Of a DNA stretch of 64,000 nt, positions 3,842 to 39,790 are shown piece after piece (within the stretch, counting starts at the first letter, position 1; the number at the start of each line of letters is the position of its first letter). The notes under the pieces are model-generated. The model saw only the letters and a program-made list of their open reading frames with translations. It had not been told where the DNA came from and ran no database searches. The DNA is from Kutzneria viridogrisea (GTDB taxonomy: Bacteria > Actinomycetota > Actinomycetes > Mycobacteriales > Pseudonocardiaceae), in the NCBI GenBank assembly GCA_014138725.1, contig JACJID010000005.1, positions 558,001-622,000 on the forward strand, written 5' to 3'. Made by a program: the position numbers and the translations under genes.

Positions 3842-4738
3842 CTACGCGTCGGTTCCAGCGAGCAACTGGTCGAGCAGTTGCCAGGGCTTGTCTGTCCGGA
3901 CCTCGCCAGCGTCGATCGCGGCCTTGAGCCTGCGGGTCAGTACGGCGGCGGTGGCGGCGGGGATCGTGCGGGTGCCGAGCACGACCTCGATCCCGACCTG
4001 CCCGCGATGCCGGGTCTCCGCCGAGCCCGGGACAAGGAACCCGGCTTGGAGATCGGTGAGGTGGCGCTCGGCCAAACCAATGAGTATGCCCAGGGCGACG
4101 CCGACGTTGCCGACGTTGTGCGCCGAGTGCGCGGAGGCCAGGGCGTCCAGCAGCGGGTTGTAGTCGGCGTAGGCGGCAAGCCACGTCTCGTCCGCCGACT
4201 TCCCCAGGGATTCCAGGGCGGTGCGGGCGGCGTCGGCCTCGGGCGGGAGAAACGCGATGGTGATCGTCTGGAAGTCCAGGTTCGCCTCCGACAGGGACTC
4301 CAGGTCTATCTGCTGGAGTAGGTCGAGGGTCTTGTCGTCTAGGCCGGCCATCTGCCGGTAGTCGATGTCCTCAATCCCGTCGTAGAGGATCTTCAGAGTG
4401 GCCAGGTCGTCCTCCCCAGCCAACGCGTTGTGGGACAGCTGAAGCGCGGTAAGCCGGTCTTTCGGAAGCTTCTGCCGGATCAGCAGGAAGTCGGCCTCCT
4501 CGATCCCAGCCTCCAGGGCCGCCATCACCCGGTGGTTACCGGAGAGCACGAGTTCGTGGCCTTCGGCGTACTCGCCGTCCCCGCTGTAGATCAGGGGAGT
4601 GGAGGTCAGGTAGCCGTCCTCGCCGAGGTTGGTCACGAGTCGGTCGTAGGTCTCCTTGCGCATGTAGCGGGCGTTGACGTCGAGCAGGGTGAGGTCCTTG
4701 AGCTGGCGGCGGACCACGGCCGGGGGATCGAGCTTCAC
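3842..4738 (-). CDS. ParB-like nuclease-domain protein
   Basis: This 298-residue protein has a ParB/Srx-type N-terminal domain, residues about 8-95, with the signature LVLSGNHRVMAALEAG where GNHR corresponds to the GxRR-type nucleotide-binding motif. The C-terminal 150 residues are helical and unassigned. GTG 4738 is the start: it overlaps the stop of the upstream gene as GTGA and AGGAG is 7 nt away. It is the last of four genes with 4-bp overlaps. ParB-fold proteins in phages and mobile elements often accompany DNA-modifying enzymes, and the Mom-like gene in this operon fits that pattern. A chromosome-partition ParB is unlikely: no ParA is nearby and no classical HTH was noticed. Confidence 0.8.
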   Translation of the reverse strand: MKLDPPAVVRRQLKDLTLLDVNARYMRKETYDRLVTNLGEDGYLTSTPLIYSGDGEYAEGHELVLSGNHRVMAALEAGIEEADFLLIRQKLPKDRLTALQLSHNALAGEDDLATLKILYDGIEDIDYRQMAGLDDKTLDLLQQIDLESLSEANLDFQTITIAFLPPEADAARTALESLGKSADETWLAAYADYNPLLDALASAHSAHNVGNVGVALGILIGLAERHLTDLQAGFLVPGSAETRHRGQVGIEVVLGTRTIPAATAAVLTRRLKAAIDAGEVRTDKPWQLLDQLLAGTDA

Positions 4739-5328
4739 GGGGTGACTCCTGCGTGCTGGTCGTGGAGGGCGTCCCCGGTCCACAAGGCCAGAGCCAGGGC
4801 GAGAACGAGGTCATCGTGGCCAGCACCCGCGGCCTCGTGGCGCTGGTAGCCGCCGGGGCGGGGCTTGGCGATGAACCTGCCGAGCTGGCCCCGAAGTTCC
4901 TGGACGCCGGGGGTGTCGGGCAGGGAGAGGCCGCGCTGTTGCAGCGCGACCTGCACCACCTCGGTCAGGCGGTGCTTACCGACGGAGTAGGTGTCCGGCC
5001 CGGTGTGGCGGACGGTGCTGCCCGCGACGATGGTGACCGCCACGATGTGCAGCTCCGGTGCCGCCGCCACAGCGAGTTCGTGCACGGCGGCGCCAATACC
5101 GGTGGCATCGAGGGTCAGCACCACCGGCCATCCGGCATCCGCGAACTCGCGGGCCAAGCTGACGGCCCGCTGCGCCAGCGCGGTGTAGCTGGTGCCCAGC
5201 GGGAGATTCCCAACGTCGAGGGCGTCCCAGCACGGCCGGTGCGAGCCGGGACGCGGCCCGGCCGAGTGCAGCACGGCCAGGGCAGCGGGGTCGCGCTCAC
5301 GGCCGACGTCCATCCCGATGGAGATCAC
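4735..5328 (-). CDS. Terminase-type RNase H-fold nuclease, stand-alone
   Basis: This 197-residue protein looks like the C-terminal nuclease half of a large terminase without the ATPase half. It has ISIGMDVGRERDP (first Asp), VVLTLDATGIGAAVHEL (second Asp with the usual TGxG), TYSVGKHRL at the position of the conserved Lys/Arg stretch, and GHDDLVLALALALW (final Asp pair). All expected acidic metal ligands are therefore present. GTG 5328 overlaps the upstream stop by 4 nt. It sits between a small Cys protein and the ParB-like gene. It may supply nuclease activity to the terminase encoded on the other strand, whose own nuclease-like gene lacks the central Asp. Confidence 0.75.
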   Translation of the reverse strand: MISIGMDVGRERDPAALAVLHSAGPRPGSHRPCWDALDVGNLPLGTSYTALAQRAVSLAREFADAGWPVVLTLDATGIGAAVHELAVAAAPELHIVAVTIVAGSTVRHTGPDTYSVGKHRLTEVVQVALQQRGLSLPDTPGVQELRGQLGRFIAKPRPGGYQRHEAAGAGHDDLVLALALALWTGDALHDQHAGVTP

Positions 5329-5504
5329 CGCCGCTGCTCCCAGCGCCCACACCCCGGGCAGGCGCGAACCGTGCCACGCAGGCCCGGCACCGCGGACCAG
5401 GGACCAGCGTTGGTGTGCTGGCACCAGCGGCCGGTGCGCACCCAGTGCCGGAACTCGGTACCGAGGACGAGTAGTTCGCCGAGCAGTTCCAGCAGCGGGT
5501 TCAT
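5325..5504 (-). CDS. Small Cys/His protein (59 aa), possible zinc binder
   Basis: The gene starts at ATG 5504, overlaps the upstream stop (ATGA) and overlaps the next start (GTGA), so it is held in the operon at both ends. The N-terminal 15 residues are hydrophobic and helical (MNPLLELLGELLVLG). The rest has a CxH pair (CQH) and a CPGC pair, which together could bind one zinc. I know of no named family. Its position between the Mom-like protein and the nuclease suggests an adaptor for one of them; this is inference. Confidence 0.6.
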   Translation of the reverse strand: MNPLLELLGELLVLGTEFRHWVRTGRWCQHTNAGPWSAVPGLRGTVRACPGCGRWEQRR

Positions 5505-6844
5505 CGGGTGACCGCCGCGTGCTTGGCCTGCCACAGCTCCAGGGCCTCGGCCAGCGACCACGCCCCGAACGTGCCGGAGTACTGGAGCTGGTAGCGGTGG
5601 ATGCCGTCGGCGGCGGGCTCGGTGCGCTTGACCAACCGGAACCCGGGAATCCCCCGCCCATACTTGGAGGACTGGGGGTTGTTGGAGAACGCGGTCGTGC
5701 AGATCGCGGTCACCCGCTTGCCCGCCGAGCGCTGCACGAGCAGCTGCGCCTCGGCCGACATCGCCGCCAGCACGATCAACTTGCTCAGGCGCTTGTACTT
5801 CGACCAGGACACCGGGAAGTCCGACATGAGGTAGACCTCGCCCGGGTCGTACTTACCGGGCAGGTACGCGAACGCGCCGATCAGCGCACCGCCTGCGGAC
5901 ACCCCGACCGCCAACAAGGGCGAGCCCGGCTTGATGGTCTTCGACATGAACTGCGAGCGGATCCCCGCGAACTGCCCACCGCTGAGCGCGTGCAGCCGCA
6001 GCGGGCCCTGGAGCTCCTCGTCGGGAGCGATCTTGCGCATCCGGATCGGGTCCAGCGCCTGCCGCGGTGTCACAACCCGGACGGCGTCACCGGAGGCGTA
6101 CACGGTGATCGGGACGCCCCGGTTGCTGGTCTGCACCCGACCCCGCCGCCACTGAGCGAGGTCCTCACGTTCGTGGTGCAGGCCCAGCATCCAGTGCGGG
6201 CGGCTGACCACCTGCTCGATGATCTGATCCTTGCCCGCCTCGTCCAAGTCCCGGTACTCCGGCACCGGCCAGTCGAAGTGCCGGTCGAGCGCGGCGAACA
6301 TCGACTCGTAGTCGCCGGAGCCGTAGAACGGAGGGAACAACACCACCGGCGAGGATCCAGGGGCGGCGTCGAGATAGTCACGGACGTCCCCGGCCCAAAA
6401 CGACCCCAGGCGCAGCGTCACCGCGTCCAGGCGAGCGCAGGTCTTCGCGTACAGCTGCGGCATCTGCTCCCGGTAGGCAGCCACCATCGTCTCGTAGTAG
6501 GCGCCTTCCCGGCCCACGAACTGCAAGAAGCGCGTGCCGAGCATGAGGACCGCGAGGGTACCGGTCGAGCCGTCGAGGTAGGCCTCCAGCCACTCCAGCT
6601 CGGCACGGCTGTCAGGCTTGAGCTCGAACGGCAGGTCCAGGCCGGTGAAATGCCAGCCCAGCGCGCAGGAGTAGGAGGTGATGTCGTTGCCGTGCAGCGC
6701 GGTGCCGCGCCCGAGCGCGTGGATCGCGCGCTCGATGGTCAAGTTCCCCGAGCAGCCTACGTACACCGGGAGGTCGGCGGGCCAGGACAGGGCATGTTCG
6801 GCCACGATCGACCGCATCTCTGCGGGGATGGTGCCGTTGAACAC
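5501..6844 (-). CDS. Methyltransferase-like / Mom-like GNAT fusion, predicted DNA base-modification enzyme
   Basis: Start GTG 6844 is chosen because GGAGG lies 6 nt upstream; longer frames run into the terminase small-subunit gene. The 447-residue protein has two parts. Residues 1-230 look like a D12-type adenine methyltransferase: VYVGCSGNLTIERA (27-40, motif I), HGNDIT (51-56, motif II) and VLFPPFYGSG (168-177, PPFY motif IV). Residues about 285-410 resemble the Mom/GNAT acyltransferase fold: GGALIGAFAYLPG, VYLMSDFPVS, KYKRLSKLIVL and TTAFSNNPQSSKYGRG. Mom of phage Mu modifies adenine and protects DNA from restriction. It is the first of four translationally coupled genes. The family call is by motif reading only. 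Confidence 0.65.
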   Translation of the reverse strand: MFNGTIPAEMRSIVAEHALSWPADLPVYVGCSGNLTIERAIHALGRGTALHGNDITSYSCALGWHFTGLDLPFELKPDSRAELEWLEAYLDGSTGTLAVLMLGTRFLQFVGREGAYYETMVAAYREQMPQLYAKTCARLDAVTLRLGSFWAGDVRDYLDAAPGSSPVVLFPPFYGSGDYESMFAALDRHFDWPVPEYRDLDEAGKDQIIEQVVSRPHWMLGLHHEREDLAQWRRGRVQTSNRGVPITVYASGDAVRVVTPRQALDPIRMRKIAPDEELQGPLRLHALSGGQFAGIRSQFMSKTIKPGSPLLAVGVSAGGALIGAFAYLPGKYDPGEVYLMSDFPVSWSKYKRLSKLIVLAAMSAEAQLLVQRSAGKRVTAICTTAFSNNPQSSKYGRGIPGFRLVKRTEPAADGIHRYQLQYSGTFGAWSLAEALELWQAKHAAVTR

Positions 6845-7054
6845 CGGGCGCCTCCAGCACATTGGGGGCATCCGGCCAGGTACGCCAGGCGACGCGATGT
6901 GAGCACTACTCACCTGCCTGTGCGAGAGGAGCAGGCGACTCGCGGCGCAGCGTAACGCACCCTGCCCTGGGCGCCCGTAGACTCCTGCCTCGACGATCAC
7001 CGGGCCTGGCGTGGATGGCCGCCGGCAACACCCCCTTGTTGCCGGAGGCCTTTG

Positions 7055-7597
7055 ATGACGTTCGCCGAGGACCGGGACCCCTGGGCCCGCCAGCCCGGCG
7101 AGACCGGCGAGGCGTTCGACTGGTTCTCCCACTGGCGCAACGACGGTCACCGCCGCAGCTACGCGCGCGTCGCCGAGCGTTTCGCGGTGTCCTATCGGCG
7201 TGTGGTCGGCGCGGCCCGCCGGGGTGAGTGGCAGGCCCGGCTGGATGCCTACCGGACGGCGAACTCCGCCGCGCTGCGGGAACGGGCCACGGAGCTGATC
7301 GAGCAGGGCCTGGCTCCGTTCGCCCAGGGGTTCGCGCGGATGAGCGCGCTCGCGGTCACCGGCCCCGCGGACCGGGTACCGCCGGACCGGGCGCTGGCCG
7401 CTGCCGCCACCGCGCTGCGCACGCTGCGCGACCCGGTGGTGCGGGAACTCCTGCGGGCACCGGAGGAACCGGAGCAGACGCGGGAGATTGACCTGGTCGA
7501 GCTTGTCCTCGACCAGCTCGCGCAGCGCTGGCCCGAGGCCCACGACGCCGTCCTGGACGCACTCCGCAACGCCGTCGACACCAACCCGGCGGGCTGA
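7055..7597 (+). CDS. Terminase small subunit-like DNA-binding protein
   Basis: ATG 7055 follows GGAGG at 7043-7047 with a 7-nt gap. The 180-residue protein begins with an acidic stretch and then a helix-turn-helix (about residues 28-55, ...YARVAERFAVSYRRVVGAAR...). A long helical region follows, typical of small terminases that recognise DNA and oligomerise. It overlaps the ATPase gene by 1 nt (TGATG). Its position directly before a terminase ATPase supports the call. It lies divergently from the Mom-like operon with about 210 bp between their starts. Confidence 0.7.
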   Translation: MTFAEDRDPWARQPGETGEAFDWFSHWRNDGHRRSYARVAERFAVSYRRVVGAARRGEWQARLDAYRTANSAALRERATELIEQGLAPFAQGFARMSALAVTGPADRVPPDRALAAAATALRTLRDPVVRELLRAPEEPEQTREIDLVELVLDQLAQRWPEAHDAVLDALRNAVDTNPAG

Positions 7598-8418
7598 TGG
7601 CCTCCGTCGCCCAGCTCGACCGGCTGCTGCTGCGCCGCGACCCCGCGGTGCTGATGCGCCGCGCCGGGATGACCCCGGATGGCTGGCAGCAGGTGCTGCT
7701 GCGCCGCCGCCCGCACCGCGCCCTGGTCACCACCAGCAGGCAGTCCGGCAAGTCCACGACCGCGGCCGCGATGGGACTGCACCGCGCGCACACCACTCCG
7801 CGGACCACGGTGGTCGCGGTGTCCCCGACCCAACGGCAGTCCGCGCTGCTGATCAGCCGAGTGAAGGTCTTCGCCGAGGCAGTCGGGATCACCCTCGCTA
7901 AGGACAACGCCCTGTCGGTGGAGCTGCCGAACCGGTCGGTGATCTACGCGCTGCCCGGCTCCCCGGACACCGTCCGCGGCTACAGCCCCGAGCTGCTGCT
8001 CATCGATGAGGCCGCCTACACCACCCCGCAGCTTTACACCGCCTGCCTGCCGATGCTCGCGGCCACCGGCGGTGACCTGATCGCGGTGTCCACCCCCAAC
8101 GGCCAGCAGGGCTGGTTCTGGGCCGAGTGGTCCGGCCAGGGGGCGCCGGGCTGGCTGCGGATCGAGGTCCCCTACACCCAGATCGCCCGCATCAGCGGCG
8201 AGTTCATCATCGGCCAGCGCGCGTCGATGTCGGCCGAGCGGTTTGCCGCCGAGTACGAGTGCGTGTTCAACGCCGCCACCACCGGCCTGTTCAACCCCGC
8301 CGACCTGGCCGCCGCGTTGCGCGACGACCCGGTCCTGGACGGCAGCGGCCTGCCCGACCCCCGCGAGATCATGCGCCGCAACCGCGCGCGCCACACCACC
8401 GGAACTGGAGCGGCATGA
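7597..8418 (+). CDS. Terminase large subunit, ATPase domain only
   Basis: This 273-residue protein has the ATP motor half of a large terminase. TTSRQSGKST (45-54) is Walker A, ELLLIDEAAY (132-141) is Walker B with catalytic Glu, and AVSTPNGQQG (163-172) is the coupling motif. It stops after EYECVFNAATTGLFNP, the usual link to the nuclease domain, and the nuclease-like part is a separate gene starting in an ATGA overlap. A single-chain large terminase would be about 450-550 residues. The motor would pump DNA through the portal protein encoded next. Confidence 0.85.
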   Translation: MASVAQLDRLLLRRDPAVLMRRAGMTPDGWQQVLLRRRPHRALVTTSRQSGKSTTAAAMGLHRAHTTPRTTVVAVSPTQRQSALLISRVKVFAEAVGITLAKDNALSVELPNRSVIYALPGSPDTVRGYSPELLLIDEAAYTTPQLYTACLPMLAATGGDLIAVSTPNGQQGWFWAEWSGQGAPGWLRIEVPYTQIARISGEFIIGQRASMSAERFAAEYECVFNAATTGLFNPADLAAALRDDPVLDGSGLPDPREIMRRNRARHTTGTGAA

Positions 8419-9173
8419 GACTGCGCGCACCCCACCACCCCACCAGTCCCGCAGGCGGGAGCCGCGAGACGCGCACCGACGCGCCACCCGCACCCGACGC
8501 CCGCGTCCTCGCCTTGGACATCGGCCTGTTCGGTCACTACGGCTCCATCTCCTCGATGTTCTGGTACCAGAACGGTGGGCACCTGCACGCCCACGTCGCC
8601 GAGTTGCTGCCCGAGGACGCGACGCTGCTCGATCAGCTCGACATCCTCGAAGCACTGGCCGAGTCCTACGAGGAGTACTGGCGCATCGCCCCAGTCGTGG
8701 TCCTCGGGGTCACCGTGCTCTCCCCGATTGGCCGCCAGCAGGTCCGCGACCACCTGGGCTCCTGGCACAACCCGCCCTGGCGGCGGCGCCTGGTCACGGT
8801 CGGCGAGTACGCCTCCGAGCACACCGGCACCCGCGCGCTGACCTCGCGGAAGAAGTTGCGCGACCTCATCGCCCAGCGGCTGACCGACCACACCCTGACC
8901 GTGACCCGCGCCCAGCACGACGCGATCGCCCAGTACACCGGCCGCCGCGCCCAGCCCGGCCGGGGCACCGAGGAGGAGTGGCGCACCGACGAGGTCGACG
9001 CCCTCGCCCTCCCGGTGGCCTTGTCGTGCCTGGCCGCTCACTCGCTGCTGCCCCCGCCGCTGCCGACCGCGGTACAGCTCGCCCGCCAGCAGGACCGGGC
9101 CCACCGCGCAGCGCAACACCAGTTCGGCACCATCCCGTTTGACGGTGCTCGTTCCGGGCGGGTGCGCGGATGA
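8415..9173 (+). CDS. Terminase nuclease-like subunit, active site apparently incomplete
   Basis: The 252-residue protein follows the terminase ATPase with an ATGA overlap. It has the order of a terminase RNase H domain: VLALDIGLFGHYGSIS with the first Asp, then VVVLGVTVLSPIGRQQV where a second Asp would be expected but none is seen. RALTSRKKLRDLIAQRL follows, and TDEVDALALPVALSCLA replaces the usual HDDxxxAxALA. The fold seems kept but at least one metal ligand is missing. It could be a structural or regulatory subunit, with nuclease activity coming from the protein at 4735-5328. The first 35 residues are Pro-rich and disordered. The gene overlaps the portal gene by 4 nt. Confidence 0.65.
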   Translation: MRLRAPHHPTSPAGGSRETRTDAPPAPDARVLALDIGLFGHYGSISSMFWYQNGGHLHAHVAELLPEDATLLDQLDILEALAESYEEYWRIAPVVVLGVTVLSPIGRQQVRDHLGSWHNPPWRRRLVTVGEYASEHTGTRALTSRKKLRDLIAQRLTDHTLTVTRAQHDAIAQYTGRRAQPGRGTEEEWRTDEVDALALPVALSCLAAHSLLPPPLPTAVQLARQQDRAHRAAQHQFGTIPFDGARSGRVRG

Positions 9174-10795
9174 GCCCCGGCACGAAGCTGACTGCGCGGC
9201 TGACCCGGTGGCTCACGCCCACCAGCACCGCACCACGGGCGGCGGTGTGGAGGCCGCCGTCGTTGTCAGCCGCCGCGACCGCACCACCACCGGCGCTGAG
9301 CCCGGCACTGGCGCACTCCACACCGGTCACCCAGGAGTGGCAGGCACGGGCCTGGACCTACTACCGGCGCATCGGCGCGGCCCGTCAGGGCGTGGACTGG
9401 CTCGCCCACGGCCTGTCCCGCTGCCACCTCTACATCGGCGTGACCCAGCCCGACGGCGCAGGTGACCCCGTGCCCCTGCTCCGCGAACAGCCCGGCACCG
9501 CGCCGGGCACTCAGGTCGTGGCCGGGTTCGACCCGGCCATGCTCGACCTCGCTGGCGAGGTCCTCGCCGAGCTGTACGACGGGCCGGTCGGCCACGGCGA
9601 CGCGCTGCGTAAGCTGGCCCGCTGCCTGCTCGTGCCCGGCGAGTGCTGGCTCATCGGCTACCCCACGCCACCACCACCCGGCACACCACCCGCGACCCCA
9701 GACCTCGCCCCCAGCAAGGACATCGGCCACGGCACCTCGTGGACGGTGGCCTCCCGGCAGGAGTGGATGGTCACCGGGGAGGACGAGATCGCGGTCAAGC
9801 TGCCCCGCCACCCCGCCCGCGGCCCCGACGGCTGGGTCCAGCTTGGCCCTGGCCAGGCCGTGGCGATCCCGGTCTACCAGGAAGACCCCGAGGACGCGCT
9901 GCGCCCCACCTCCCGCTTCGAAGCGGTCATGCGGGATCTCGACGAACTCGACGGCCTGGCCAGCCGGGTCCTGGCCGACATCCGGTCCCGCCTGGTGTCC
10001 GCGGGCCTGGTGACCGTGCCGGAGTCCGCGATGCTCGCCACCCCCGGACACGCGGTCGGCGCTGGGGTGGACCCGTTGATCACCAGCCTGATCAGCGCCG
10101 CGGCGACTCCGATCCAGGACCAGGACAGCCCCGCCGCGCACATCCCGCTGGTGCTGCGTATCAGCGACGAGGCGATCTCCAGGTTGCAGCACCTGACGTT
10201 CGCCACCCCCTTCGACGACCAGCTGCCGGTCCTGCGCGAAGCCGCGTTGCGGGCGGTGGCCTGCGGTCTGGACATTCCCGCCAGCGTCGTCACCGGCATC
10301 AGCGACCTCAACCACTGGTCGGCGTGGGCAGTCAGCGACGAGGCGGTGGCCAGCCACCTCGGGCCGCTGGCCAGCCTGATCTGCTCCACGCTCACCCGCG
10401 AGATCCTCTGGCCCATCCTGCGCGCCAGCGGCTTCACCGACGTGGAACGGCTCGCGGTCTGGTGGAACGCCTCGGCGATCATCCTGCGCCCCGACCGCTC
10501 CGCCACCGCGCTGGACGCCAAGCGCCTCAACCTGATCAGCGACCGCGCCGCACGACGAGAGCTCGGCTTCTCCGAAGACGACGCCCCCACCCCGGCCGAA
10601 CTAGACCGCGCACACCAGCTCGCCCTGGCCCAGCAACACCTCGCCGCACCGCAGGCCGGCGCCGAACCGATCGACGACAGCGGCCTGAACGAGGACGGCG
10701 GGCAGCCCAACCCCGGCCACCGCCCAAACCCACCCAGCACCCCCACCGGGCAGCCAGCGAACCCACCGGCCGCCCCGGCTCGCGCCACCACCTGA
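9170..10795 (+). CDS. Phage portal-like protein
   Basis: The 541-residue protein is in the position and length range of portal proteins, after terminase genes. Typical features are a disordered N-terminus, the stretch WTYYRRIGAARQGVDWLAHG, a central block with DLDELDGLASRVLADIRSRL, and a C-terminal segment RLNLISDRAARRELGFSEDDAPTPAEL, as in many actinophage portals. The last 60 residues are Pro/Asn/Gly-rich and disordered. Portals form the ring through which a terminase moves DNA. No protease, scaffold or capsid gene follows; the next gene is a recombinase. Confidence 0.75.
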   Translation: MSPGTKLTARLTRWLTPTSTAPRAAVWRPPSLSAAATAPPPALSPALAHSTPVTQEWQARAWTYYRRIGAARQGVDWLAHGLSRCHLYIGVTQPDGAGDPVPLLREQPGTAPGTQVVAGFDPAMLDLAGEVLAELYDGPVGHGDALRKLARCLLVPGECWLIGYPTPPPPGTPPATPDLAPSKDIGHGTSWTVASRQEWMVTGEDEIAVKLPRHPARGPDGWVQLGPGQAVAIPVYQEDPEDALRPTSRFEAVMRDLDELDGLASRVLADIRSRLVSAGLVTVPESAMLATPGHAVGAGVDPLITSLISAAATPIQDQDSPAAHIPLVLRISDEAISRLQHLTFATPFDDQLPVLREAALRAVACGLDIPASVVTGISDLNHWSAWAVSDEAVASHLGPLASLICSTLTREILWPILRASGFTDVERLAVWWNASAIILRPDRSATALDAKRLNLISDRAARRELGFSEDDAPTPAELDRAHQLALAQQHLAAPQAGAEPIDDSGLNEDGGQPNPGHRPNPPSTPTGQPANPPAAPARATT

Positions 10796-10875
10796 CCACC
10801 CCGACGCACCCACCAGCCCGGCGACTTCCAGTGCCGTCAGCGTGCGGTGAATCACCGTTCACCCGAGAAAGTCCC

Positions 10876-12333
10876 GTGAATACTCCCGATTCCCAATTCA
10901 CACACCGCCGCCTAGCTGGCCTGATGCGGCTTTCATCCAACCTGGAACTACCGTCCAACGCGGACTGGCTCGAACCACCCGAACACACCCTGCAGGCCCC
11001 CACAGCGACCGACAACGCCCTGCTCGTCGAGATGGTCGAGGGCTTCGTCCTCGAGTTCCACGCGGCGGGCGGCAGCACCAGCGACACCTACTGCTCGGCA
11101 CTGCGCATCTACCTGCCCTGGTGCGCGGACAACGGCATCGACCCGCTGCTGATCACCCGCAGGCACGCCTCGAAGTTCTCCGCGTGGCTGGCCACCACCC
11201 GCTCGCCCAGCACACACCAGATCCGCTCCGCCTCACGCCGCGCCGGGATCCTGTCGGCCTGCTCCTCGTTCCTCGAGTACGTGATCGACAACGGGGCCCG
11301 CCCGGAATGGGCACGCAACCCGTTCACCCGCTTGAAGCGGCCCACGGTCGACCGGTCAGCAGCCAGCGGCATGCGGCTAACCGTGAGCACCGCCAACCAG
11401 CTCGTACTCGGTGCACGTGCGGACCGGCTCCTGGGTGGCGTGCTGGGCAAGCTGCTGCTGGCGACGCAGGCTCGGATGGGGATCCGGCCGGGTGATGTGT
11501 GCAGCCTCAACCTGAGTGGCGCAGCCGATGACGGGTGCGGAGGGTACGAGTTGCGTGTGCCGGTCAAGGGCGGCAAGTCCGTGACGCGGTGGCTGCCACC
11601 CGACCTCGCATCGGACTTCTACACCTACCTGAAGCTGCGCTCTGAGCCGGTAGAACGGGAGAAGCCGGACCCGCGCGGGCCGGACCCGCTGTTCGTGCAC
11701 CCGGTCCGCCACAGCAGATTGAGCACCGACGACCTGCTGCGGCTACTGCGCCGCTCCGCCGCTCGCGCCGGGATCCTGGACCCCGATGCGTTGACCTGCC
11801 GCATGTTCCGGCCGTTCTTCAACACCTTGGCCAAGGCGCAGGGCGCTGCGTTGGAGGACCGGAAGGTCGCTCTGGGCCACGCCAGGGCGAGCACGACGGA
11901 GCGCTACGACCGCACCGTCTGGGCCCGCGAGCACGATCCGGCCATCGCGGTGGCCGCCGCGTTCGACGGCTACCCCGCAGAAGCGCGAATCGCGCCACTG
12001 CTCGACCAGCAGTGGGCACCGCCCCCGGTGGAGCGGGGCTGCGACTGCACCCCGCGCTGGCCCGAGCTGTTCGTCGACCTGAGCCCGGTGGGCGTCGACC
12101 AGACCGCGGTCGCGGTGATCACCGAGGAACCCGAGCCCGGAACGCACGCCCTGACGCCGTACTGCCGGCGGTGTCGCACCGCCTATCCGGGGCCGTTCCG
12201 CGTCGTGCGGGTGCTCGACGACCTCGGCGAGGTACTGCTCGGGCAGGTGCGCGCGGAACTGGCGGAGGTGGCCCTGTACCCCGAAGCGGTACGGCGCCGG
12301 AGCGAGCGACGGCGGGGTGCGGCGGACTGGTGA
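10876..12333 (+). CDS. Tyrosine recombinase with C-terminal Cys cluster
   Basis: GTG 10876 begins the 485-residue protein (MNTPDSQFTH...); a weak GAGAAAG precedes it. The core-binding domain is at about 40-165, the catalytic domain at about 170-355. Catalytic residues seen are Arg in TQARMGIRPGDV, Lys in VPVKGGKSV, Arg in RMFRPFFNTLA, His in LGHARASTTERY and the Tyr nucleophile in ERYDRT. The box usually written HxxR is RxxR here. After the domain comes a 120-residue tail with CDC and CRRC, a possible zinc ribbon not usual in integrases. It may act in element recombination or resolution rather than integration, since another integrase lies at 21.6-22.6 kb. Confidence 0.75.
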   Translation: MNTPDSQFTHRRLAGLMRLSSNLELPSNADWLEPPEHTLQAPTATDNALLVEMVEGFVLEFHAAGGSTSDTYCSALRIYLPWCADNGIDPLLITRRHASKFSAWLATTRSPSTHQIRSASRRAGILSACSSFLEYVIDNGARPEWARNPFTRLKRPTVDRSAASGMRLTVSTANQLVLGARADRLLGGVLGKLLLATQARMGIRPGDVCSLNLSGAADDGCGGYELRVPVKGGKSVTRWLPPDLASDFYTYLKLRSEPVEREKPDPRGPDPLFVHPVRHSRLSTDDLLRLLRRSAARAGILDPDALTCRMFRPFFNTLAKAQGAALEDRKVALGHARASTTERYDRTVWAREHDPAIAVAAAFDGYPAEARIAPLLDQQWAPPPVERGCDCTPRWPELFVDLSPVGVDQTAVAVITEEPEPGTHALTPYCRRCRTAYPGPFRVVRVLDDLGEVLLGQVRAELAEVALYPEAVRRRSERRRGAADW

Positions 12334-37544: not shown

Positions 37545-37760
37545 ATGAGCGAGCACTTCACGGTGCAGGAAGCGGCGGAGTACCTGAACACCACGGTCCG
37601 GTTCGTCCGGCGACTCATCGCGGAGCGGCGGATCGCCTTCCACCACCTGGGCCGCCTCGTGCGGATCAAGCGGGTGGACCTGGAGGCATTCGTCAACGCG
37701 GGGCGGGTCGAAGCGATCACGGTTGCCTCGGTGTGGCGTGACCTCGGCGGGGTGGCGTGA
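37545..37760 (+). CDS. xis: Excisionase (Xis), MerR-like winged helix
   Basis: ATG 37545 has GGGGGGAT upstream. The 71-residue protein has [32 protein letters not shown] (split by a turn) and [13 protein letters not shown]. This is the DNA-binding excisionase pattern of AICE elements. It directs Int to excise the element. Its stop overlaps the int start by 1 nt, so Xis and Int are made together. Confidence 0.9.
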
Positions 37761-39208
37761 TGGCGAACAAGGAAGGCCGCCGGGGTTTCGGCAACGTGCG
37801 GAAGCTGCCCTCCGGGAAGTGGCAGGCGCGCTATCCGGGACCGGACGGCAAGCTCCGACCGGCTCCGGACACGTTCGACTCGAAGCGGGCCGCTGAGCAG
37901 TGGCTGAGTAGGACAGAGGCGCTGATCCTCGGTGGGGAGTGGACCAACCCAGACCTCGGGAAGATCCTGATCCAGGACTACGCGGAGCGGTGGATCACGC
38001 AGCGTCCGGCGCTGAGGCCGCTCACGGTCAACCTGTACCGCTGGCTGTTGGCGAAGTACATCGTGCCGGGCCTCGGCGGGGTCCAACTCGGCAAGCTCAG
38101 CACGGCCATGGTGCGGGAGTGGCGGGCGAACCTACTCGGCAACGGCGTGTCGGAGACGATGGCCGCGAAGGCGTACCGGCTGCTGAGGGCGGTCCTGAAC
38201 ACGGCGGTGGAAGAGGACCGGATCTTGCCTCGGAACCCGTGCAAGGTGAAGGGCGCGGACAAGGAGAACCCGGCGGAGCGGCCCGTGGTGTCGGTGGCGC
38301 AAGTGTTCGCCCTGGCGGACAGGGTTCCGGCGCGGTTCCGGGCGCTGATCCTGCTCACGGCCTTCGCCACGCTGCGGTGGGGCGAGGTGTCGGCGCTGCG
38401 GCGGTGCGACGTGGCCCCGGACGGGAGCTGGGTCCGGGTCAACTTCGCGCACACGGAGGTCAAGGGCAGGGGCATCGTGGTCGGGCCGCCGAAGTCGCGG
38501 GCGGGTGTGCGGACGCTGGCGGTGCCCGTGGCGATCAGGCACGAGGTGGTCAAGCACCTGTCCACCTACGTGAAGGCGGCGAACGACGCCCTCCTGTTCA
38601 CCAGGGAGAAGGGCGGCCCGGTCCGGAGCGGCAACTTCTACCAGCGCACGAAGTGGACGAGGACGGTCGCCAAGCTGGGGATCAAGGGCCTGCACTTCCA
38701 CGACCTGCGGCACTCGGGCAACGTGTGGGCGGCGCAGGCCGGGACCAGCACCAAGGACCTGATGGCGCGAATGGGCCATGACGACATGCGGGCAGCCCTG
38801 ATCTACCAGCGGGCGACGAGCGAGGCTGACCGGCAGATCGCGGACCGGCTGAGCGGGTTGATCGACAAGCACCGGTCAGGGGGAGAGGACGAGGACGGGG
38901 CGGCTGGCGCCCTGGTCCCCGCTGGCCATGGCACGACGCGTGCTACCCCACCCCACTACGGGGGTCTCGGGGGCGGAGCCCCCGGCCGGGGGTCTGGGGG
39001 TCGTCCCCCAGAACAACAGCGAGGGCGTCATGTCTGCGCTCTCCGCAGACATGACGCCCTCACGCTCGAGCGGGTGACGAGAATCGAACTCGCGCCTAAA
39101 GCTTGGGAAGCTTTCGTTCTACCATTGAACTACACCCGCAGAACCGAGATCAGCATACACAACGGCGCCGTGACCGCCAGTACCCGGGGGGACGTTAGGC
39201 TGTGTCCT
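37760..39208 (+). CDS. int: Integrase (Int) of the integrative element; no stop codon before dcd
   Basis: ATG 37760 overlaps the xis stop. Core-binding and catalytic domains are at about 65-165 and 175-370. The catalytic set is Arg in [11 protein letters not shown], Lys in the VKGRGI region, HDLRHSG (HxxR), ARMGHDD (His) and Tyr in ALIYQRA. A homologue would end near residue 390-400. Here the frame stays open through the terminator hairpins, across the tRNA-Gly gene (read backwards as [22 protein letters not shown]) and into dcd in the same frame. The end given is the codon before the dcd start, not a stop. The C-terminus therefore depends on integration. Confidence 0.85.
38968..39011. terminator. 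Two GC-rich hairpins after the int catalytic domain
   Basis: CGGGGGC-gga-GCCCCCG (38968-38984) and CTGGGGG-tcgt-CCCCCAG (38994-39011) are close together. They resemble the GC-rich intergenic hairpins common in actinomycetes and may end transcription of the transfer/int operon. Confidence 0.5.
39021..39061. terminator. Perfect 18-bp stem hairpin next to the tRNA-Gly 3' end
   Basis: Arms 39021-39038 and 39044-39061 are exact complements (GAGGGCGTCATGTCTGCG and its reverse complement) with a 5-nt loop CTCTC. It lies 8 nt from the 3' end of the minus-strand tRNA gene and is most likely its terminator. Confidence 0.7.
39069..39139 (-). tRNA. tRNA-Gly (anticodon CCC)
   Basis: Read on the minus strand, the arms are acceptor GCGGGTG/CACCCGC, D stem GTTC/GAAC, anticodon stem AAAGC/GCTTT with loop TTCCCAA (anticodon CCC), and T arm GCGAG-TTCGATT-CTCGT. 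CCA is not encoded. Its 3' end faces the integrase gene, as expected when the 3' part of a tRNA serves as attachment site. In M. tuberculosis a tRNA-Gly gene also lies beside dcd, as I recall. Confidence 0.95.
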
Positions 39209-39790
39209 GTGTTGCTGAGTGACCGTGACCTGCGCAAGGAGCTCGAGGGCGGACGCCTCGTGCTGGAGCCCTACGACTCCGCGATGGTCCAGCCGTCGAG
39301 TATCGACGTCCGACTGGACCGGTACTTCCGCGTCTTCAACAACATCAAGTACACGCACATCGATCCACAGCTGCAGCAGGACGACCTGACCTCGCTGGTG
39401 GAGCCGGACGGGGAGGAGCCGTTCGTGCTGCACCCCGGGGAGTTCGTGCTGGGGTCGACCTACGAGCGGGTGAGCCTGCCGGACGACCTGGCCGGGCGCC
39501 TGGAGGGCAAGTCCTCGCTGGGCAGGTTGGGCCTGCTCACGCACTCGACGGCGGGCTTCATCGACCCGGGCTTCACCGGGCACATCACGCTGGAGCTGTC
39601 GAACGTCTCGAACCTGCCGATCAAGCTCTGGCCGGGCATGAAGATCGGGCAGCTGTGCCTGTTCCGGCTGGAGAGCCCGGCGGAGTACCCGTACGGCTCG
39701 GCGCGGGCGGGGTCGCGCTACCAGGGGCAGCGCGGGCCGACCCCGTCCAGGGCGTACCTGAACTTCCACCGGGTGAACACCCAGCGCTGA
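39209..39790 (+). CDS. dcd: Bifunctional dCTP deaminase/dUTPase
   Basis: GTG 39209 gives [12 protein letters not shown], matching the start of mycobacterial Dcd, and the length of 193 aa is normal. Key segments are [54 protein letters not shown] and [18 protein letters not shown]. The enzyme turns dCTP into dUMP for thymidylate synthesis. The frame upstream has no stop as far as int, which looks like an accident of integration. It is convergent with the CDF gene, 1 nt apart. Confidence 0.97.

Follow-up and report, generated by a model that had tools for sequence, protein, structure and literature searches.

How does a phage terminase cut DNA if the protein in its nuclease slot lacks a catalytic residue, and the nuclease that keeps the full set lies in an operon facing the other way? 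The question is raised by a 64,000-nucleotide (nt) stretch of Kutzneria viridogrisea DNA (the window; G000:C5:558001-622000, within a genome of 10.25 Mb), in which a prophage carries a large-terminase ATPase gene, a degenerate terminase-nuclease-like protein (P1) and, on the opposite strand, a stand-alone terminase-type nuclease (NUC). With moderate probability, the three together make up the large terminase of a lineage of temperate actinobacterial phages, divided into three parts: the ATPase would be the motor, P1 a structural part that holds DNA without cutting it, and NUC the nuclease that cuts in trans.

The ATPase was assigned to the large terminases by its matches to PF03237 and phrog_7579 and by the gene order small terminase (TerS)-ATPase-P1-portal. 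Its residues 10-224 were 42-45% identical to the large terminase (TerL) of Thermus phage Riverbug and of Meiothermus phages MMP7 and MMP17. A sequence-only reading of this DNA had placed the ATPase and the nuclease-like part in separate genes, and both frames were indeed open (7597-8418 and 8415-9173). No two-domain TerL is formed: the ATPase ends at 8418, P1 starts at 8415 in a different frame, and NUC (4735-5328) is encoded on the opposite strand. The TerS/ATPase, ATPase/P1 and P1/portal joins overlap by 1 to 4 bases, with 4 bases at each end of P1, and on the other strand a ParB-like gene starts with a GTG that lies within the end of NUC, the two genes sharing 4 bases (GTGA).

In the G20c large terminase, D294, D347 and D429 are described as indispensable, and D347N as being among the least active mutants (PMC5389553). 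The NUC frame was open and contained the motifs earlier quoted for it (MDVGRERD, LTLDATGIG and GHDDLVLAL), with Asp at the three equivalent positions (D7, D74 and D173) in 4/4 orthologues, as had been claimed for its acidic residues. Alignment to known terminase nucleases agreed: a profile of three NUC rows matched the G20c/P74-26 TerL nuclease chains 5m1q, 5m1f and 5tge (expectation value (E) 0.002-0.005), mainly in the HDD region and with HDD in register, and the residue spacing counted on the 5tge alignment agreed with D294, D347 and D429. As judged from these motifs, NUC is a terminase-type nuclease, for which cleavage in packaging is predicted. No match to NUC was obtained in the phage collection, the genome contigs or the other genomes of the genus.

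P1 has the motifs LALDIG, VVVLGVTVLSPIG and TDEVDALALP. The absence of the central Asp, reported in the sequence-only reading, was upheld: the D347 position was G98 in 4/4 P1 (alignment by motif), so that P1 does not hold the three essential Asp, vs. D in 42 rows, E in 10 and G in none of a 52-row NUC-family alignment, which omits weaker matches (E above 1e-15) of 9/48 viral loci. The replacement of HDD by TDEVDALALP stood as quoted, but was a smaller loss than had been proposed, because D192 aligns to the second D of HDD (the D429 position) and was kept in 4/4 P1. Also kept in 4/4 were D35 (the D294 position) and D195. The H427 position was R190 in 4/4, the D428 position was T, H, T and T, and the homologue on locus L153 reads HDD. 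By alignment, the decisive loss is that of the central Asp, TDEVDALALP still holding one Asp at a catalytic position. As for the metal ligands of P1 being kept at other positions, which would have refuted the sequence-only reading, no P1 regained an acidic residue at motif II (4/4), while the D35 and D192 positions were retained.

P1 is under purifying selection. The pairwise ratio of nonsynonymous to synonymous substitution rates (dN/dS; Nei-Gojobori) was 0.43-0.63 for P1, vs. 0.50-0.67 for the ATPase and 0.48-0.76 for NUC, all values likely inflated by high guanine and cytosine content, and the P1 reading frame was unbroken in 4/4 loci. P1 and the ATPase are under similar constraint, so that P1 is not debris. 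That P1 shares the terminase nuclease fold is probable from several indications, each weak alone: its place in the nuclease slot, an hhalign comparison of profiles, the order of elements in a structure model, and Foldseek matches of that model. A 4-row P1 alignment and the 52-row NUC-family alignment gave a co-linear match of 177 columns with a score of 27.8, which was reached by 0/150 column shuffles (best 19.6) and 0/100 block shuffles (best 26.8); reversed controls scored 22.2 and 20.4, and P1 against the ATPase 13.2. A P1 profile compared with a small set of frames also gave weak matches (E 9e-4 to 4e-3) to NUC-family members at the HDD region. In the low-confidence model the elements follow the RNase H order, with D35 in the first strand, G98 in the fourth strand and D192 where a late helix begins. 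Among the Foldseek matches listed (50 of 1166) were two terminase nucleases, the herpesvirus domains 4iox and 3n4p, along with RNase H domains and RNase H-like folds (hexokinase, uS11, poxvirus resolvase); the matches are taken as no more than suggestive because the P1 model is poor.

The layout of a degenerate nuclease beside the ATPase and an intact nuclease in the opposite operon, as first described in the window, was conserved in four diverged loci. The search for loci carrying both genes, which the sequence-only reading had recommended, returned three further viral contigs, so that P1 is present on four distinct contigs: that of the window, 2827231811_000003 (L118/L153), 3300018429_000060 (L152/L161) and 3300049441_000045 (L154). 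In 4/4 the operons diverge, with TerS-ATPase-P1-portal one way and Mom-like-NUC-ParB-like the other way. Identity among the four orthologues was 62-67% for P1, and 58-67% for P1 and NUC taken together. The quartet was monophyletic in both the ATPase tree and the NUC tree (support 1.0), and the combination of NUC in a modification operon with a degenerate P1 was found in this lineage only. Further P1 were absent from the genome contigs, and from phages and plasmids by tblastn. Across 7 genomes of the genus and 200 of the family the window's own copy alone was returned, and across 298 genomes of the order that copy, plus one weak match elsewhere in the window's own genome and others in 9 further genomes (best E 6e-5, 24 bits, 31% identity over 100 residues, in a frame of 1098 amino acids), which were judged compositional. 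P1 is rare in the sequence sets searched.

Plain split terminases, in which the nuclease has a gene of its own on the strand of an ATPase-only gene, were more widespread. A scan with the NUC-family profile returned at least 48 viral loci, of which many are ordinary fused TerL and at least 16 are split terminases, three of the latter (L072, L073 and L074) being near-copies. Among the matches listed, the NUC relative shared the ATPase strand in 16/16 viral split loci, and in 15/16 the two genes overlapped, adjoined or were no more than about 330 nt apart. The window NUC departs from this plain split layout, being on the strand opposite to the ATPase with the Mom-like gene and TerS in between. 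Matches to phrog_27743 were present in 11/296 genomes of a phylum sample, the window's own counted, and an adjacent ATPase/nuclease pair was also present in genomes G054, G190, G206 and G233. Two other arrangements were observed: at L081 (3157-6579) five small frames (2 kilobases, kb) separate ATPase and nuclease, and at L069 (5959-7012) two NUC-type nuclease genes follow the ATPase in tandem, the second ending with the contig and a ParB-looking frame lying upstream, which is another duplication of a terminase nuclease.

The operon that holds NUC is otherwise a recurrent cassette, consisting of a gene with PF22555 and PF22559 (Mom-like) followed by a ParB-like gene, both of which the window has. 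A scan with four Mom-like sequences returned 27 viral loci, with the ParB-like gene next in 26/27 and the remaining locus (L183) interrupted by the contig end. The gap from the Mom match to the ParB homology was -8 to 321 nt in 23 loci and 595-1361 nt in 3; NUC was inside the gap in 3/3 long-gap loci and in 0/23 other uncut loci. In all 3 NUC-bearing cassettes P1 and the ATPase lay on the far side of the divergent gap, and in 6/23 cassettes without NUC the DNA was too short upstream to show P1. L154 is a fourth NUC-bearing cassette, found via P1 and not returned by the Mom-like scan. Phages Sting, GodPhather, Clawz and Taptic had no NUC in the cassette. In cassette phages and contigs without NUC (Sting, Brigit, ValentiniPuff, GodPhather, L168, L172, L173, L176 and L182) acidic residues were present by eye at the three TerL motifs; the TerL of L167 was ambiguous at the second motif and that of L175 incomplete on its contig, and the contrast is loose since most of these TerL belong to lineages other than phrog_7579. 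From this distribution, NUC appears to have joined, in the loci with a degenerate ATPase-linked nuclease, a cassette that lacks it in other loci.

In the tripartite terminase as proposed, the ATPase would drive DNA translocation. ATPase and P1 would assemble on the portal, with P1 docking ATPase, DNA and portal, and P1 would grip DNA without cutting it, after the manner of the vestigial domain of phi29 gp16. P1 is proposed to be non-cutting because the metal-B aspartate is absent. NUC, made from its own operon, would be recruited to cut at the start and at the end of packaging, and its separate expression would be a simple means of keeping the cutter away during translocation.

Several observations weigh against this proposal. 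Among the prophage genes scanned no major capsid gene was recognised, which bears on whether the prophage is functional. P1 keeps both metal-A ligand positions and the invariant His (H41), which leaves room for a residual or unusual activity. Its homology to terminase nucleases is weak in sequence, with no significant Pfam or PHROG match, a best E of 0.05 among PDB sequences, and an hhalign probability of 12% against the NUC family. The 3-row AlphaFold2 model was of low confidence (predicted local distance difference test, pLDDT, 45; predicted template modelling score, pTM, 0.36; pLDDT 38 when folded from the single sequence), and its best Foldseek match had an E of 1e-3, with none below. Because the four loci are one lineage, the co-occurrence of NUC and P1 is in effect one evolutionary event. 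Nor does the NUC tree resolve whether NUC descends from the ATPase's own partner, the node that joins the four NUC to their neighbours having a support of 0.016; ATPase and NUC distances across 39 loci were correlated (r 0.55; 0/2000 permutations), most gene pairs being linked or fused anyway. The association of NUC with a terminase, on which the sequence-only reading had staked its proposal, held in the P1-type loci, all four of which have the ATPase, but not in the wider family. Genome G212 has a full-length distant NUC relative (L186 7923-8717, G212:C39), with part of another such gene before it, on a contig of 16.9 kb in which no terminase ATPase was found, and G122, G173, G254 and G286 have short NUC pieces only, with no ATPase within 8.5-18 kb; the family is therefore not strictly bound to the ATPase. 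A further match, in G209, runs off the contig end. These ATPase-less genes look like remnants, although they show the family to be capable of standing alone. The G212 gene is either a prophage remnant or a nuclease with a different role.

The sequence-only reading had gone further and suggested that cutting could be tied to DNA modification. NUC would then be made, and perhaps held, with the Mom-like and ParB-like proteins, the concatemer would be cut only once modified, and P1 would be a cutting-dead clamp; if true, cleavage by this terminase would be licensed by base modification. The tie is drawn because NUC belongs to the operon, overlaps the ParB-like gene by 4 bases and is placed within the cassette in the P1 lineage only, and it is possible, though rather unlikely. 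The same position between the Mom-like and ParB-like genes, in an order kept in 4/4 P1-type loci, is also what would be expected if NUC were part of the modification cassette and not of the motor, for instance a nuclease that destroys unmodified DNA while the Mom-like modification protects phage DNA. The G212 relative without a nearby terminase ATPase fits this explanation; it is nevertheless unlikely, since the cassette does without NUC in the 23/23 other uncut viral loci and in the four named phages, and since the nearest NUC relatives are terminase nucleases, stand-alone or fused.

It is rather doubtful that P1 itself cuts in packaging, through a metal site that has diverged (e.g., H41 or a conserved carboxylate in place of D347), NUC having moved to another job. 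The P1 gene lies where the nuclease is normally encoded and overlaps both of its neighbours, ATPase and portal, and D35, D192 and D195 are kept, but the central ligand, G in 4/4 P1, is D or E in 52/52 NUC-family rows, and its replacement in G20c (D347N) is reported among the most damaging (PMC5389553). Moreover, NUC keeps every catalytic residue, and its relatives accompany the ATPase on one strand throughout the viral split loci listed. Ordinary decay, with P1 a dying nuclease that was replaced by a second copy and has no lasting role, would account for the missing central Asp and for the T or H at the first HDD Asp in 4/4 P1. It is highly improbable, because decay would not keep P1 intact over such divergence: the frame is intact in 4/4 at 62-67% identity, dN/dS is in the range of the ATPase values, and it is one and the same residue that has been lost throughout.

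The element that carries the ATPase, P1 and NUC is a prophage, as judged from its genes: tape-measure and minor-tail genes lie upstream, and portal, terminase and a tyrosine-recombinase-like gene lie inside the window. The IMG/VR contig 2863105245_000004 (32,469 bases) corresponds to about window -16 kb to +16.4 kb (negative meaning upstream; by arithmetic on contig ranges), and matches the window copies of NUC, ATPase and P1 at 99-100% identity. The features are listed in Table 1.

Table 1. Features of the terminase region and its divergent operon (window positions), with tRNA genes beside Mom-like genes in other loci (positions in each locus).
Feature	Position	Strand	Basis and remarks
ParB-like gene	3842..4738	-	phrog_7405 8e-59; ends the minus-strand operon
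NUC, stand-alone terminase-type RNase H/RuvC-like nuclease	4735..5328	-	phrog_27743 2e-21; D7, D74, H171-D172-D173 intact
Mom-like gene, Phage DNA Adenine Methylase-like and Phage GNAT-like domains	5501..6844	-	PF22555 3e-88, PF22559 2e-49, phrog_7858
Conserved non-coding motif ACCGGGYCTGGCG-N(n)-GGCCGCCGG	6999..7025		just upstream of terS; in 4/4 P1-type loci
Small terminase (TerS)	7055..7597	+	phrog_6299 6e-15
Large-terminase ATPase gene without nuclease domain	7597..8418	+	PF03237 2.7e-13, phrog_7579 6e-39
P1, degenerate terminase-nuclease-like protein (probable), at the usual place of the nuclease	8415..9173	+	comparison with NUC-family profile, low-confidence model, homologues in L152, L153, L154
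Portal protein	9170..10795	+	phrog_776 1.7e-97
Tyrosine-recombinase-like gene	10924..12333	+	phrog_1 integrase 1.7e-17; PF00589 4.6e-6 (just under its cut-off)
tRNA-Gly upstream of Mom-like gene	L153 6455-6527; L152 6335-6407; L154 6363-6435; L056 9893-9964; L158 2893-2964		L056 is GodPhather, L158 is Taptic
Further tRNA-Gly loci by Mom-like gene	L160, L163, L164, L166-L169, L183		L152, L153 counted as L161, L162

The motif between the two operons is a candidate, from its position and conservation, for a putative packaging site or an operator; scans for promoters and terminators in the region returned nothing. At about 5325-5500, in the gap that separates NUC from the Mom-like gene, a small frame containing CxxC was considered as a component of the system and dropped, because in L153 and L154 NUC directly follows the Mom-like gene by coordinates. 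The tyrosine-recombinase-like gene is directly 3' of the portal in 4/4 P1-type loci, a place that head genes usually occupy. In L154 the portal gene (8417-11545) has an in-frame insertion of about 400 residues, starting with CTLPDVEIM and ending with FYTGN before Ser, at a site (DLNHW^SAW) that is uninterrupted in the window portal; the insertion is presumably an intein. Elsewhere in the window a tRNA-Gly (ccc; 39068-39139) lies within an integrase-looking frame (37760-39790), and may have served a second integrated element as attachment site.

In 10/27 viral loci the Mom-like gene had a tRNA-Gly gene on its own strand, no more than about 400 nt upstream, as it also had in L154, GodPhather and Taptic. 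All were Gly by anticodon save that of L152/L161, in which the anticodon loop is irregular (tc). The 27 loci hold 14 tRNA genes overall, and the chance expectation in the upstream stretches is about 0.2 (from 387,173 bases, 11,340 of them in upstream stretches, and two strands). Brigit (FP_Brigit) has a tRNA-Lys at this place. No tRNA was found upstream of the Mom-like gene in the window (6845-7054), Sting or Clawz, and the Mom-like gene of ValentiniPuff begins at the record start, where an upstream tRNA cannot be judged. The Mom protein of phage Mu adds a glycinamide-like group. The placement of these tRNA genes suggests that the GNAT half may take glycyl-tRNA as donor for a glycine-type base modification; titles and abstract starts in the literature gave nothing on a link between tRNA-Gly and Mom-like genes.

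In the usual terminase as described in PMC7617512, one large subunit has its own nuclease, which is silent during packaging and fires at the end, control being exerted via its own domain. The separation of P1 from NUC makes two roles of the nuclease domain, DNA holding and docking vs. cutting, testable apart, and a cutter inside a DNA-modification operon is a testable control point. The split terminase itself is not new in sequence space, as PHROGs holds ATPase-only and nuclease-only families separately, phrog_27743 being without an assigned function. For TerS and ATPase together with a separate degenerate nuclease and an intact nuclease in a modification operon, no description was found in titles and abstract starts, most subscription papers being outside this coverage.

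The split terminases of phrog_7579 and phrog_27743 likewise pair an ATPase-only gene with an RNase H-like nuclease from a gene of its own, both from the families seen in the window; they differ in being on one strand and mostly adjacent, with no P1 detected, whereas in the window NUC is in the opposite operon and P1 in its place. The Gordonia, Mycobacterium, Faecalibacterium and Microbacterium phages looked at have the same two genes (DNA adenine methylase-like plus GNAT-like, and ParB-like) in the same order as the window, but none has NUC between them, and their TerL is a single polypeptide with the acidic motifs in place. NUC shares the D / D / HDD set with the G20c/P74-26 large-terminase nuclease, which is there one polypeptide with the ATPase (PMC5389553).

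P1 resembles the vestigial nuclease domain of phi29 gp16, which has the terminase nuclease fold (probable for P1) without the catalytic set, still binds DNA and is thought to hold it (PMC7672431). In phi29, however, the domain and the ATPase form one fused protein, a small terminase is lacking and the genome has unit length, whereas the window has a separate P1, TerS and an intact nuclease (PMC7672431 for phi29). The phi29 type also has a packaging RNA (pRNA) and a unit genome capped by a terminal protein; by gene fusion and TerS, the two features compared, the window is not of this type. The nuclease domain is stated in PMC7672431 to be functional in all phages but the phi29-like ones, and P1, if inactive, would be an exception to this statement. 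NUC, in turn, is like gp74 of HK97 in being a separately encoded nuclease that would take part in the packaging cut; gp74 differs in that it is an HNH enzyme and stimulates a TerL whose own centre (D302, D388, D471) is described as present (PMC9410871).

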